NCBI RefSeq assembly: GCF_000016605.1
Contig: NC_009440.1
Span: forward strand, 434,001-498,000
Length of the DNA stretch: 64,000 nucleotides
DNA from: Metallosphaera sedula DSM 5348
GTDB taxonomy: Archaea > Thermoproteota > Thermoprotei_A > Sulfolobales > Sulfolobaceae
Reading direction: 5' to 3'
Of the stretch, positions 37,430 to 42,368 are shown piece by piece. The translations under genes and the position numbers were made by a program. Position 1 is the stretch's first letter. The number at the start of each line of letters is the position of its first letter. The notes under the pieces were generated by a model. It saw nothing but the letters and a program-made list of their open reading frames with translations. It was not told the DNA's origin and did no database searches.

Positions 37430-38625
37430 TATCCAAGTTCAATATTTTTATTGATAATATAATTTTCAACACACTTACCGGTTATGCCATGGAACTAGAG
37501 CCGTGGGAGATAGAGAAGTTAAAGGGTGGAGAGGTACCTGATCACCTTAAGGAAGTAGTGGAGGAGGGATTTTCAACTCCTGGCGATTTGGAGAGCGTGT
37601 TGGAGCCACTCCTCAACAAGCCTGTCCTCGAACCTACCCTTCTCCTCACATACAACTGCAATTTCAATTGTACCTACTGTTTTCAGAAGGGATTCAGGAA
37701 AGATCTCACGGTCACGGAAGAGGTGATGAAGGGTTTCATAAACTACGTGAGGAAGAGGGAAAGAGGTAGAAAGGTAAGAGTCACGTTCTTTGGGGGCGAG
37801 CCTCTCCTAGAGCTCAAGAAGATCGAGGAGATATCTAGGTCGCTCTCTGATCTGAAGTACTCCTTTAGCGTTGTCACCAATGGTTCCCTCTTGACCAAAA
37901 GTGTAACCCAAAGGCTGATATCCCACGGACTTTCGCATGTCCAGATAACCCTGGATGGACCCCCGGAAGTTCACGATAAGAGAAGGTTTTATGTAGATGG
38001 TAGAGGTTCCTTCAACACGATAATACAAAACCTGAGAGAGGTTCAGGATCTAGTGAAGGTAGTTTTGAGAATAAACATAGACGTGAATAACCTTAACGAG
38101 GTATACACTCTTCTGGCCAAATTGGTGGAGGAGGGGATAACTAGGATCAGATTGGATCCTCACTTCGTACATACCAACCTATTTAGGAACGAATGGTGGG
38201 AAAACGTGATTCCGAAGGACCTGGAATCAGACGTCCTAGTCAAGTTCTGGGAAAAGGCCAGGGGTTACGGATTTGAGATTCCCCATGACATCTTTAGACT
38301 TGGGATCTGTGCAGCACATATAGACGAAGACATCGTGGTAGATCCTGAGGGAAAGGTCTATCCATGTTGGGCTTTCACAGGGAATCCCCTATACGTGAAG
38401 GGAAGGCTCACGCAGGAAGGTGAGGTGGAGCTACTGAATCGGTCCCTATCCGGAAGGAAATCCCTCATAATCCACGAGAAATGTAAGTCATGCCCCTATC
38501 TTCCCATGTGTATGGGAGGGTGTAGGTTCCTCTCAGTCCTTGACGGAAAAGGATACCACGGTCTAGATTGCAGGAAGGAAACTTATGAAAAGCTAGTCAA
38601 GCTATTAAAGTTTCTAATGCGGTAA
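37423..38625 (+). CDS. Radical SAM/SPASM maturase-like protein
   Basis: A 400-residue protein. Residues 1-70 form an N-terminal domain opening with FNIFIDNIIFNTLTGYAM, of the kind seen in peptide-maturing radical SAM enzymes. Then the cluster motif C79-x3-C83-x2-C86 (YNCNFNCTYCFQ), FFGGEPLLE at about 125, and a SPASM region with CAAH, YPCWAF, EKCKSCPYLPMCMGGCRF and GLDCRK. The architecture is that of RiPP maturases and anaerobic sulfatase-maturing enzymes and is distinct from the two heme-type genes nearby. A GGTGA site lies eight bases before the ATG. It is divergent from the U32 operon and followed by regulator copy C. Substrate unknown; a candidate precursor lies directly upstream. Confidence 0.75.
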   Translation: MALSKFNIFIDNIIFNTLTGYAMELEPWEIEKLKGGEVPDHLKEVVEEGFSTPGDLESVLEPLLNKPVLEPTLLLTYNCNFNCTYCFQKGFRKDLTVTEEVMKGFINYVRKRERGRKVRVTFFGGEPLLELKKIEEISRSLSDLKYSFSVVTNGSLLTKSVTQRLISHGLSHVQITLDGPPEVHDKRRFYVDGRGSFNTIIQNLREVQDLVKVVLRINIDVNNLNEVYTLLAKLVEEGITRIRLDPHFVHTNLFRNEWWENVIPKDLESDVLVKFWEKARGYGFEIPHDIFRLGICAAHIDEDIVVDPEGKVYPCWAFTGNPLYVKGRLTQEGEVELLNRSLSGRKSLIIHEKCKSCPYLPMCMGGCRFLSVLDGKGYHGLDCRKETYEKLVKLLKFLMR

Positions 38626-38703
38626 ACCCCGTTAAAGATCGAGTTAGTTATTTAGTGAGATTTCATTTTTTAAACTTTAAAATATCTAGTTATAATGAGT
38701 ACA

Positions 38704-39243
38704 ATGTGCGACTATAGAATTTTCAATACGGATAGGCCCGTGAAAAAGAGCGAGAAGATAATCATGCTGTCAAGGGAGAATTTCAACAAGTTGGGCACGG
38801 AGAATTACATAAAGGTACTATCCACAGATAGGAGAGACAGCCTAGGACTAAGCAAGAGTTACTATTACTACATCCTGGAGGACTTGAAGAGAATGGGACT
38901 CATAGAGGACAATGCCATAACCTTTAAGGCAGTTATACCCTTCATTCCCAGGCAAAGCTCACTCGACATAGATACAGGCGTACTTTATACATCAAATAAC
39001 CACCTGATCTTCATTGACATGGGATCCTCAAAATACGAATGTGCAACGTGTCCTGTTTACGCAGAATGTGTCTACGGGATAAGGAGGGTAGCCAGTGAGA
39101 TGAGAATAAAGGTAGGCAATGTTGATAACGAGGAAGCTAGGAATTTGAGGATGCCTTCTCAACTTTGGAACAAGTTGGTAAAAGGGATATTTGCAAAAAC
39201 TGTTGTTAGACTTGAAGTGATCCCGATGACAGCTAAAATGTAA
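38704..39243 (+). CDS. Putative Cys-motif DNA-binding regulator, copy C
   Basis: A protein of 179 residues, paralogue of the genes at 3090 and 29641. It has MCDYRIFNTDRPVKKSEKI, the LSKSYYYYILEDLKRMGLI segment, DNAITFKAVIPF and ECATCPVYAECVYG (C-x2-C-x5-C). The ATG at 38704 is chosen since it gives the MC start shared by the other copies and lies 25-35 bases after the AT palindrome/TATA at 38668-38682; ATG 38695 would add three residues. It follows the radical SAM gene by 78 bases but has its own promoter. The inverted repeat TTTTAAA-C-TTTAAAA over the core promoter could be its own binding site. Confidence 0.68.
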   Translation: MCDYRIFNTDRPVKKSEKIIMLSRENFNKLGTENYIKVLSTDRRDSLGLSKSYYYYILEDLKRMGLIEDNAITFKAVIPFIPRQSSLDIDTGVLYTSNNHLIFIDMGSSKYECATCPVYAECVYGIRRVASEMRIKVGNVDNEEARNLRMPSQLWNKLVKGIFAKTVVRLEVIPMTAKM

Positions 39244-39310
39244 GTTATGAGTCTATCTTATACGTTAGATGATGTTTACTATTCTGAGATAGTTGTTCAG
39301 TTTTCAAAAA

Positions 39311-39364
39311 CCATGCTTGGCGTGCCAAAATCGAGGGTCGTGGGTTTGATCCCCTCGCGCCCTC
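39311..39364 (+). other. tRNA-3'-end-like sequence, possible attachment-site remnant
   Basis: Between two convergent genes, GGGTCGTGGGTTTGATCCCC at 39334-39353 resembles a tRNA variable loop and T-arm (G-TTTGATC-C with four of five stem pairs), followed by CTCGCGCCC like an acceptor strand. The 5' half of a tRNA is missing. An inverted repeat TTGGC-GT-GCCAA lies just upstream at 39317-39328. Elements of Sulfolobales integrate into tRNA genes and leave 3' fragments, but no integrase is seen here. Weak evidence. Confidence 0.25.
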
Positions 39365-39401
39365 ACATCCTCAGCTTGCAGGAGAATCGTTTTATTATAT
39401 C

Positions 39402-40277
39402 CTAAAGTAGATCCAGACCCACCTTATCAAGGCTTCTTAACCAATCCAGGAAATTTTTGACATCTTTCTCCATGAATATAGAGCCGTGTTGTGGCGCAAT
39501 TATCCGTATGTCCATGCCCTGAATTCTGTTTAACCATTTCTCGATCGCCGCCTTACTGGGTATATACCTTCTGTGGAAACCTTCCATTAACTTCACGTGT
39601 TCCTCAAAGTTCTCAACGATCAAATACCACTTATCCTTGGGAAATATGGCTGCGCCCATATCACCCGAGAAATATACCTTGGAGATCGGGTCGTAGAAGT
39701 GGAAGTTCCCAGGGGAATGCAGGAAATGTGCCGGAACAGCCTCGATATAACTCTTCCCGAACGGTATTTTTGCACCGACACTGTTCAGTAGAGACTCACA
39801 AGTATCACTTAGACGAGATAAAGTTATATCAAGGGCCAATCCCGGAGTCGTCACGAAGATAGCATTACAACTGGAATCCCCGGTAGCAAGGTGATACCCT
39901 TCGGTTTCAAGGGCAGTTATCTCATCCATGCCAGGTGGATTATCGGTAATTACAACTTCTATGTCTTTTAATGCCTTGGAGTACATTTCCACAAATTCCT
40001 TCACATTTGGAAGTTTCGTGGGTAAAATTGATACTAATGTCAATACTCTTAAGTTTCCTTCCTGGACCAAGTATTTTCCTTCAACTTTATCTGCTATCAC
40101 ATTAATTAGACCAGTTTTTAGCCCGAATATTCTTCCGATAGTATTCGTGTAATCCCTGTCCACAAGAAGAACCTTATATTTCTCGGAGAGTTTCTTGGCC
40201 AAGAAATAGGCTATAGTCGACTTACCGACTCCACCCTTAATACTAAAAAGGGAAAACTTTACGATCCTATTAGTCAT
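39402..40277 (-). CDS. Chimera of a ParA/MinD-like ATPase and the C-terminal half of a metallo-beta-lactamase-fold protein
   Basis: A 291-residue frame. Residues 1 to about 165 are a P-loop ATPase with the deviant Walker A KGGVGKST (14-21), VDRDYTN and ITDNPPG, similar to the MinD-like gene at 41589 but cut before its last 80 or so residues. From about 168 it continues as the second half of a beta-lactamase-fold di-metal protein: AVPAHFLHSPGNF (180-192), YFSGDMGAA (202-210), APQHGSIF (261-268). The first half with the HxHxDH motif is missing. The join is in frame near base 39779. It looks like a deletion fusion of two neighbouring genes; whether the product works is doubtful. Confidence 0.72.
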   Translation of the reverse strand: MTNRIVKFSLFSIKGGVGKSTIAYFLAKKLSEKYKVLLVDRDYTNTIGRIFGLKTGLINVIADKVEGKYLVQEGNLRVLTLVSILPTKLPNVKEFVEMYSKALKDIEVVITDNPPGMDEITALETEGYHLATGDSSCNAIFVTTPGLALDITLSRLSDTCESLLNSVGAKIPFGKSYIEAVPAHFLHSPGNFHFYDPISKVYFSGDMGAAIFPKDKWYLIVENFEEHVKLMEGFHRRYIPSKAAIEKWLNRIQGMDIRIIAPQHGSIFMEKDVKNFLDWLRSLDKVGLDLL

Positions 40278-40512
40278 GTATATTCTATATGCGAACTTTA
40301 TCTTAAATATTTGTCATTATATTTATCCTGCTCAAGGTTAACTGGGTTTATTTCACTTTTTCTTTAGTTTAAATTTAATTTAGCCAGATTTTGCCTTTAT
40401 AGACGCCTGGAACACGATGAGTAACTATTACATATATTGTCTTCAATAATCAATTATAGGTTTTATAGAACATTTATATACTCCAGATAATCATTATAAT
40501 ATAGGTGAAAGG

Positions 40513-41520
40513 TTGTCCCTAGATTTTAACAGGGAGCCTGAATTTCCTCCCTACAACGTTTACCCTCCACGGTGGAGTTTCGATAACGAGAAGGCCTGGC
40601 AACTTTACAGAAGGGCCAAGAGGGAACAATGGGATGAACAAGACATAAACTGGGAAAAAGTAAAGGAGATTGCCTCAGGACTGGACAGAAAGCAGAGATT
40701 GGCCATAGCCTACTGGTGGTCCCTACTCTCCACCTTTGATAATGCCACTCCGGTCTTCGCATATGCACTGGTAAAATCACACGAGCTTCACCTGGACACC
40801 GCGGTCAAGGGAGTCATAACAACCATCACCTACGATGAGAATAGGCACAACGTGATGTGTGGGCTAGCCATAAATAGTGTATTACCTGGTTATCCCTTCG
40901 ATTTCAAACCCCAGGATGACCTGGAAAGGAAGGTAAAACTTAACACGTTATGGGCGTGGTATAATGGTTCCAGGTACTGGAAAGCTTACCTAGAGGCTTA
41001 CAGCAAGTATACGATGGACGTTCTCTTTACCTCTTTCATGATGGGAGAGGCTGCGGCGACAACAGTGTTCTCCACCATGTCCAAGGGGTCAAAGATCGAG
41101 GAATTTGGAAAGGCTTTCAAGAACACGGCCGTGGATGAGACCAGACATTACGCCTTTACTCACCTCATTATGACCAGCAACGCCGCCAGCATGAATGATG
41201 AAAGGAAGAAACTGGTGTCCAAGCAGGTTAGAGCGGGATTCGTTTTCCTTTCCCTGATAACTTACAGGCCTCCAAAGGACTTCTGGAGACTCCCTCCGTG
41301 GTACCTTGAGGTCACGGAGAAGATGGAGGATCTCGCAAGAAGCGCAGGATTCTACATTCCGGAAATGAAGGAGAAGGAGGAGGCGTGGAGAACTGCCATA
41401 ATGAGGGTGGGAGCCACACTGGGTAGGTACGGAGTTCCAATGCCTGCTATCCCTGAGCTTGGAATAACAGGTGAAGAGATAAAGGATCTTAAGGAAGACG
41501 ATTTCGTCCCAGTCTTCTAG
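40513..41520 (+). CDS. Ribonucleotide-reductase-R2-like di-iron protein
   Basis: A 335-residue helical protein with two E-x2-H motifs typical of ferritin-superfamily di-iron carboxylate enzymes: TYDENRHNVM at about 107-116 and AVDETRHYAF at about 207-216, plus MMGEAAATT at about 177 for another Glu. The N-terminal PPRWSFDNEKAWQLYRRAK and REQWDEQDINWEKV match the R2 and R2-like oxidase style; the first-helix ligand region reads STFDNATP, with Asp where Glu is usual. The start is a TTG right after AGGTGAAAGG. It lies between two ParA-like genes. It may be an R2-like ligand-binding oxidase or an N-oxygenase-type protein; substrate unknown. Confidence 0.65.
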   Translation: MSLDFNREPEFPPYNVYPPRWSFDNEKAWQLYRRAKREQWDEQDINWEKVKEIASGLDRKQRLAIAYWWSLLSTFDNATPVFAYALVKSHELHLDTAVKGVITTITYDENRHNVMCGLAINSVLPGYPFDFKPQDDLERKVKLNTLWAWYNGSRYWKAYLEAYSKYTMDVLFTSFMMGEAAATTVFSTMSKGSKIEEFGKAFKNTAVDETRHYAFTHLIMTSNAASMNDERKKLVSKQVRAGFVFLSLITYRPPKDFWRLPPWYLEVTEKMEDLARSAGFYIPEMKEKEEAWRTAIMRVGATLGRYGVPMPAIPELGITGEEIKDLKEDDFVPVF

Positions 41521-41588
41521 GATCAAGAGAGCGAAAATTTTTAAAATTTTTATCATGAAATGATTAAAACATTGGGTGTGCTATCTAC

Positions 41589-42368
41589 TTGCGAATAATA
41601 ATACTCGGAAGCAAAGGAGGGGTAGGGAAGTCCACCATTAGTCTGCTCCTAGCAAAGAGGCTATGTGAACTTGGGAAGACGGTACTTTTCGTAGATAGAG
41701 ATCAGATAGGCTACGCCTCCTGGCTAGTGGGAATCAGGAGCAAGGGCCTAGTGGCTAGCGTGGTAGATGGTGAGGAGGGGGATTACTTTGTTCAGAGGAA
41801 ATTGGGAAAGGGAAATCTTCAAGTCCTCAAATTCTATGGAGATGGCCCTAGATTAAAGGAAGATGTTAAACTAATCATCTCAGACCCAAAACTAAGAACA
41901 ACGTTTAACGAAAAGTATCAAGAGGTTATCTCGTTAGGTCATGACTTCATTGTTTTAGATAACAAGAGTACCACTTTTCCCTCCAATGACGAGATAAGAT
42001 TAGAAATTACTGCATATTCAGGACGATATCCCAATGCCCGTGGCTATAGGGTATTCGTCACGGATCCCTTTAAGATAGACATAGAGAACACGGTGTCTTT
42101 CGCTGAGAAGTTAAACAGGGAAGAGGTCCTCAAAAACCTACCGGTTAAGATTATAGGACAAGCCCTGGTAGTTAACATGGTTTCTCCTGGCAAAATTCAT
42201 GATGTGAGGAGCGACCTAAGGGAACTAAGTAGCATGTTCTCGCCCATGATTTTTGTACCTTTCTTAGAAGAATTATTCTCTTTCAGCGATGATATAGCTA
42301 GACTTCCTGACGTTGATGAAATAAGACAACTCACTGACTTAATTCAGAGCTTGGAAAACGCAGGGTGA
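41589..42368 (+). CDS. ParA/MinD-like P-loop ATPase
   Basis: A 259-residue protein with KGGVGKST at about 9-16, VDRDQIG, and IVLDNKST as the likely Walker B region. It belongs to the SIMIBI class of positioning ATPases but lacks an obvious membrane-targeting tail. Start is TTG at 41589; AATTTTTAAAATTTTTA around 41536-41552 serves as promoter. It follows the R2-like gene by 68 bases. The N-terminal part of the chimera at 39402 is its paralogue, so the two ATPases flank the di-iron gene. Function unknown. Confidence 0.7.
   Translation: MRIIILGSKGGVGKSTISLLLAKRLCELGKTVLFVDRDQIGYASWLVGIRSKGLVASVVDGEEGDYFVQRKLGKGNLQVLKFYGDGPRLKEDVKLIISDPKLRTTFNEKYQEVISLGHDFIVLDNKSTTFPSNDEIRLEITAYSGRYPNARGYRVFVTDPFKIDIENTVSFAEKLNREEVLKNLPVKIIGQALVVNMVSPGKIHDVRSDLRELSSMFSPMIFVPFLEELFSFSDDIARLPDVDEIRQLTDLIQSLENAG

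Follow-up and report, generated by a model that had tools for sequence, protein, structure and literature searches.

A probable deletion scar joining a ParA/MinD-type ATPase gene to half of an ODP-family gene in Metallosphaera sedula

Deletion-made fusion pseudogenes arise where neighbouring genes on the same strand become joined inside their coding parts and the intervening DNA is lost. Two protein families appear to meet in this way at the locus described here: the MinD/ParA/NUBPL-type P-loop ATPases (PF01656, PF10609) and the ODP family of oxygen-binding di-iron proteins (PF19583; solved chains 6qrq and 6qnm), whose members are single-domain relatives of flavodiiron proteins without a flavodoxin domain. 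One ODP, that of Treponema denticola, is described as an oxygen sensor for chemotaxis (PMC7666581). In Metallosphaera sedula DSM 5348, an archaeon that thrives in heat and acid, a single open frame begins as an ATPase of the first family and ends as the second half of an ODP-type protein. As set out below, this chimera is very probably a fusion pseudogene that was generated by a deletion, and thus a species- or strain-specific scar rather than a new kind of protein.

A single open frame composed of two severed domains

The DNA analysed, called the window throughout, is a stretch of 64,000 nucleotides of the M. sedula chromosome, at G000:C1:434001-498000. On its minus strand, an ATG-to-stop frame runs unbroken over 291 codons from 40277 to 39402. 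The frame, its parts and its neighbours are as follows:

38695..39243, plus strand: left flank gene of 182 aa, syntenic with Metallosphaera javensis (92% identity)
39402..40277, minus strand: chimeric open reading frame of 291 codons with an ATG start, read from the sequence as a single open frame
39402..39767, minus strand: back part of the chimera, C-terminal half of an ODP-family metallo-beta-lactamase-fold protein (residues ~168-291), matching ODP model positions 93-194 and residues 123-250 of the M. javensis protein (82% identity)
39768..39783, minus strand: junction zone that fits either parent poorly, with blastn segments stopping at 39784 and 39767
39784..40277, minus strand: front part of the chimera, MinD/ParA-type P-loop ATPase (residues 1 to ~165, with KGGVGKST and TDNPPG), supported by Pfam CbiA/ParA, 78% identity to M. 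javensis ParA1 and alignment to full-length relatives
40513..41520, plus strand: right flank gene of ferritin-like di-iron oxygenase type (AurF and RNR-R2 similarity weak, under curated cut-offs), syntenic with M. javensis (98%)
41589..42368, plus strand: neighbouring ParA/MinD-type ATPase, complete, syntenic with M. javensis (70%)

A preliminary description had read the frame as an in-frame chimera of a ParA/MinD ATPase with half of a beta-lactamase-fold protein, and both the unbroken frame and the Pfam matches bear this out. CbiA is matched at residues 10-163 (E 2.8e-8) and NUBPL-type ParA at residues 10-146, with the deviant Walker A motif KGGVGKST at residues 14-21, while ODP is matched at residues 165-265 (E 1.5e-38) by positions 93-194 of the 194-position model alone. 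The parents switch at gene positions ~494-510 (window ~39784-39768), which agrees with the join previously placed near 39779, and both Pfam domains are severed there. The ATPase part ends at about residue 165 where its relatives of ~241 residues run to ~226 or more, so that the chimera, although it has a Walker A motif, lacks the final ~75 residues of what would be a complete ~240-residue MinD/ParA domain. Likewise, its back part falls short of a full-length ODP domain of ~194 positions: the C-terminal motifs AHF (as AHFLHS), SGD and PQHG, which we take from flavodiiron proteins to be metal ligands, are all present, and the N-terminal metal-ligand motif (SHQDPD or THQDPD in 16 aligned relatives) is missing. 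The earlier assignment of the back part to a flavodiiron-type protein without its HxHxDH half was therefore right about the missing N-terminal half, but the family is ODP and its motif reads SHQDPDV.

Comparison of the chimera with its own genome gave 18 matches at E<=10, all of which, save the chimera itself, touch the ATPase half only. The neighbour at 41589, to which the front part had originally been aligned, is indeed homologous (44% over residues 9-92), but an ATPase at 1317.0-1317.5 kb is the closest one in this genome (63% over residues 4-167) and M. javensis ParA1 is the closest overall (78% over residues 4-164). Several ParA/MinD-like genes, one of them split in two (81 and 197 aa), form a cluster at G000:C1:1311743-1318075 (L035). 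The locus tag of the chimera is presumably Msed_0517; a literature search for this tag found no paper, and the literature searched yielded no report of a ParA-ODP fusion.

The Metallosphaera javensis locus and the missing stretch

We compared the window with M. javensis AS-7 (AP024487.1; genome G004), the nearest species with a matching locus (L030). Gene order around the locus is the same in both genomes: a radical SAM gene and the 182-aa gene stand on one side, and genes for the ferritin-like di-iron protein, ParA, an ABC permease, an ABC ATPase and a ferritin-like/VIT-type protein on the other (the last three names are our own reading). Amino acid identities of these flanking genes are, in order, 86, 92, 98, 70, 95, 89 and 92%. 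The 98% of the ferritin-like di-iron protein at 40513-41520, compared with 70-95% in its neighbours, marks it as unusually constrained. Immediately upstream of the chimera start, the two loci align only in part.

Related genomes had been proposed as the place to look for separate ParA and beta-lactamase-fold genes, and M. javensis has both within this same syntenic block:

L030:7144-7701, minus strand: M. javensis ParA1, a separate ATPase gene
L030:3424-4176, minus strand: M. javensis complete ODP protein of 250 aa, a separate gene

The two genes are co-oriented and lie ~3.4 kb apart between the same flanks as the chimera, though ParA1 is frame-broken near residue 170. In ParA1 (L030:7144-7701), ParA-like sequence goes on in another frame after this break, which could reflect decay or a sequencing error in a metagenome-derived genome. 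Between the two parents stand genes for a 114-aa protein, a 105-aa protein and a DsrE-like protein (plus strand) as well as a second ATPase, ParA2. The preliminary description had proposed a deletion between two adjacent genes; deletion is supported, but the parents are not adjacent in M. javensis, where two pieces of an ODP operon (see below), the DsrE-like gene and the second ParA separate them by ~3.4 kb.

By blastn, window 39784-40321 corresponds to L030:7205-7745 and window 39409-39767 to L030:3431-3789, and ~3.4 kb of the M. javensis map is missing from the window, with the join at 39768-39784. A base-by-base look revealed no visible microhomology between the parents at the join, where ~10-16 bases match neither parent well, although the ~20% divergence from M. 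javensis could have wiped out a short original microhomology. Both a repeat-mediated deletion and a repeat-mediated collapse of the assembly were rejected, given that 39200-40500 contains no direct repeat of at least 12 bases and no microhomology is visible. We also considered an excision linked to a mobile element or tRNA through a tRNA T-arm-like stretch at 39339-39361, between the 182-aa gene and the chimera, and rejected it: this stretch has no second copy within 3 mismatches in its own genome and none in the M. javensis locus. ARAGORN called no tRNA in the window, and Rfam returned nothing up to E 1 at 38600-41600. The ~160-base spacer from the 182-aa gene to the chimera differs from the M. 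javensis locus.

What is missing at the join is largely missing from the rest of the genome as well. When the complete M. javensis ODP protein was searched against the M. sedula genome, residues 123-250 alone were matched, at the chimera locus and with 82% identity; the next match had an E of 0.23, and the N-terminal half found nothing better than this elsewhere. Since only the C-terminal half of ODP is found, this genome is without a complete ODP gene. The 114-aa, 105-aa and nucleotidyltransferase proteins of M. javensis had no match in the M. sedula genome, the nucleotidyltransferase gene sitting outside the deleted stretch. Partial exceptions are ParA2, which has a 70% relative at another place (1316.8-1317.5 kb), and the DsrE-like protein, for which only distant paralogues were found at other places (29%, E 3.3e-12, and two weaker ones).

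An assembler that skipped ~3 kb between two real and intact parents would likewise leave the ODP half and two small genes missing from the assembly. However, the assembly consists of one contig of 2,191,517 bases with 99.99% completeness, and without a direct repeat or a visible stretch shared by the parents there is nothing obvious on which an assembly could have collapsed, so that we regard an assembly error as unlikely. Six further complete M. sedula strain genomes are listed in PMC7325606, those of ARS50-1, ARS50-2, ARS120-1, ARS120-2, SARC-M1 and CuR1.

Distribution of the fusion and the ancestral arrangement

When the whole chimera was searched against 41 genomes, its own included, no match among those listed spanned both halves in any of the 40 others, and such a match would rank near the top of those listed. 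In a sample of 398 genomes of the phylum, again including its own, 36 genomes were matched at E<=1e-12 and its own alone covers both halves (0 of the 397 others), though a search of this kind would overlook fusions whose ATPase part is far more divergent. We therefore reject a conserved ParA-ODP fusion family, and the suggestion that the frame might represent a new conserved domain combination is not borne out. Taken together, the separate parents in the same syntenic block of M. javensis and the lack of the fusion in every other genome searched argue for a deletion scar over a conserved combination.

The ODP gene itself is widespread. Of 31 Sulfolobaceae genomes, 19 contain a full-length, stop-free match, and each of the five other genus members is among them; matches with an E above 1e-12, which are distant relatives, are left out of this count. 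In genome G018, a full-length match is interrupted by two stops (G018:C19:10222-10788), and broken or partial pieces are found in G006, G022 (G022:C1:1655877-1656486) and G015; the broken ODP-type copies of G018 and G022, which belong to other genera, indicate that loss of ODP copies happened more than once.

At 12 of the 16 complete-ODP loci that were compared (M. javensis left out), a gene for a protein of 245-267 aa stands directly upstream of ODP on the same strand (L031, L032, L033, L034, L039, L040, L042, L045 and L047-L050), and at nine of these 12 the called frames of the two genes overlap by exactly 4 bases. ODP therefore usually comes second in an operon of two genes. The last ~110 residues of the upstream protein match the M. 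javensis 114-aa gene, and its N-terminal half has a weak STK_08120-like similarity that lies under the curated cut-off (two members tested). In M. javensis, the first gene of the operon is already short, with the 105-aa gene as its likely other half. This conserved Sulfolobaceae operon of a ~250-aa protein followed by an ODP-type protein offers a lead to the role of ODPs in archaea.

Genomes G002 and G005 have the same flanking genes around the ODP pair, and the ATPase next to this pair points in the opposite relative direction; an inversion common to M. sedula and M. javensis therefore probably preceded the deletion. These two genomes also bear on the possibility that the fusion is the older state and that the intervening genes were inserted in M. 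javensis. The extra genes of M. javensis (the second ParA, the DsrE-like gene and the nucleotidyltransferase pair) are indeed not at this place in G002 and G005, and if some intervening genes are M. javensis gains, the ancestral gap between the parents may have been smaller than ~3.4 kb. Yet in G002 and G005, too, these flanks enclose an ATPase and a complete ODP as separate genes, complete ODP genes occur in 19 of the 31 family genomes, and an insertion cannot make conserved missing halves. An older fusion is thus highly improbable.

For the deletion that we favour, the following course can be proposed. In the ancestor, as in M. javensis, a complete ODP-type gene and a ParA/MinD-type ATPase gene would have shared a strand, with a few genes separating them; we infer that the ATPase parent was intact, as M. 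javensis ParA1 is itself frame-broken. A single deletion, measuring ~3.4 kb by the M. javensis map, would have run from about codon 165 of the ATPase to about codon 126 of ODP, and the frame would have survived by a one-in-three chance. The missing stretch itself is apparent from the comparison, and its loss in a single event is the presumed route. It would have taken the front half of the sole ODP-type gene together with the small intervening genes. Any resulting protein would presumably be expressed from the ATPase promoter. It would retain the Walker A motif but miss the final third of the ATPase, and it would carry three metal-binding positions while the half of the beta-lactamase sandwich that faces them is gone. 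Most likely, the outcome would be an unstable or inactive protein and the loss of ODP function.

Constraint, age and relation to known families

One observation counts against a scar: neither half shows decay, and no stop interrupts the 291-codon frame. Of 46 sites at which 16 intact relatives do not vary, the ODP half has kept 44, compared with 46 of 46 to 46 of 48 when the intact relatives were each left out in turn. Measured against 15 outgroups, its average identity equals or exceeds that of the intact M. javensis protein (of 127 positions, 98 versus 95 are identical to G002 and 95 versus 97 to G003), and the ATPase half is no more distant from five relatives than M. javensis ParA1. Relative to M. 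javensis, dN/dS is 0.065 for the ATPase half, and pN is 0.086 with pS saturated for the ODP half; seven flanking genes gave pS of 0.61-0.69 and dS of 1.26-1.93. We simulated neutral evolution with substitutions only, starting from the present sequence, and counted the runs in which the frame stayed open and no more than two changes fell on the 46 sites. At 0.02 substitutions per site 34% of the runs qualified, at 0.05 4% did, and at 0.07 or more 0 of 400 did. The lack of decay and the simulation, set against the dS of the flanks, therefore imply that the fusion is recent on that scale or that its product is constrained.

Constraint would be expected if the chimera were a functional new two-domain protein, with halves that fold together or separately and a product that selection keeps in this species. 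The open frame, the 44 of 46 invariant sites and the low dN/dS-like pattern of both halves relative to M. javensis fit such a protein. However, this constraint can largely predate the fusion, as the parents are apart in M. javensis; both folds are cut mid-way, a search of the rest of the genome for an ODP relative did not recover the missing N-terminal half with its ligand motif, and none of the other genomes searched yielded the fusion. A selected function is accordingly improbable, and we think just as little of its more specific form, in which the ATPase promoter drives transcription of the fused frame and the ODP half is structural or able to pair with another chain. Of the two ways to account for the preserved sequence, we prefer a recent fusion, roughly within the last tenth of the lineage, over constraint: it is simpler, and both folds are cut. 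As a deletion scar, the locus amounts to a natural loss of ODP that is useful for asking about the role of ODPs in archaea, and it is otherwise ordinary.

Among known families, residues 168-291 of the chimera align to the last half of both solved ODP chains with AHF, SGD and PQHG kept, and the complete M. javensis protein matches these structures over residues 8-248 (6qrq, E 2.7e-73; 6qnm, E 2.5e-67); unlike them, the chimera lacks the front half, in which the SHQDPD motif and the opening strands of the sandwich lie. With the MinD/ParA/NUBPL-type ATPases it shares KGGVGKST and TDNPPG, but it stops at about residue 165 of the ~241 in full-length relatives and has lost conserved segments of the VNM...IPFYKELLF type. 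Compared with deletion-made fusion pseudogenes in general, its frame stays open with no visible decay yet, and it exemplifies how a deletion can fuse two genes into an open, in-frame chimera, which automated annotation could label as a ParA or an ODP-family protein.
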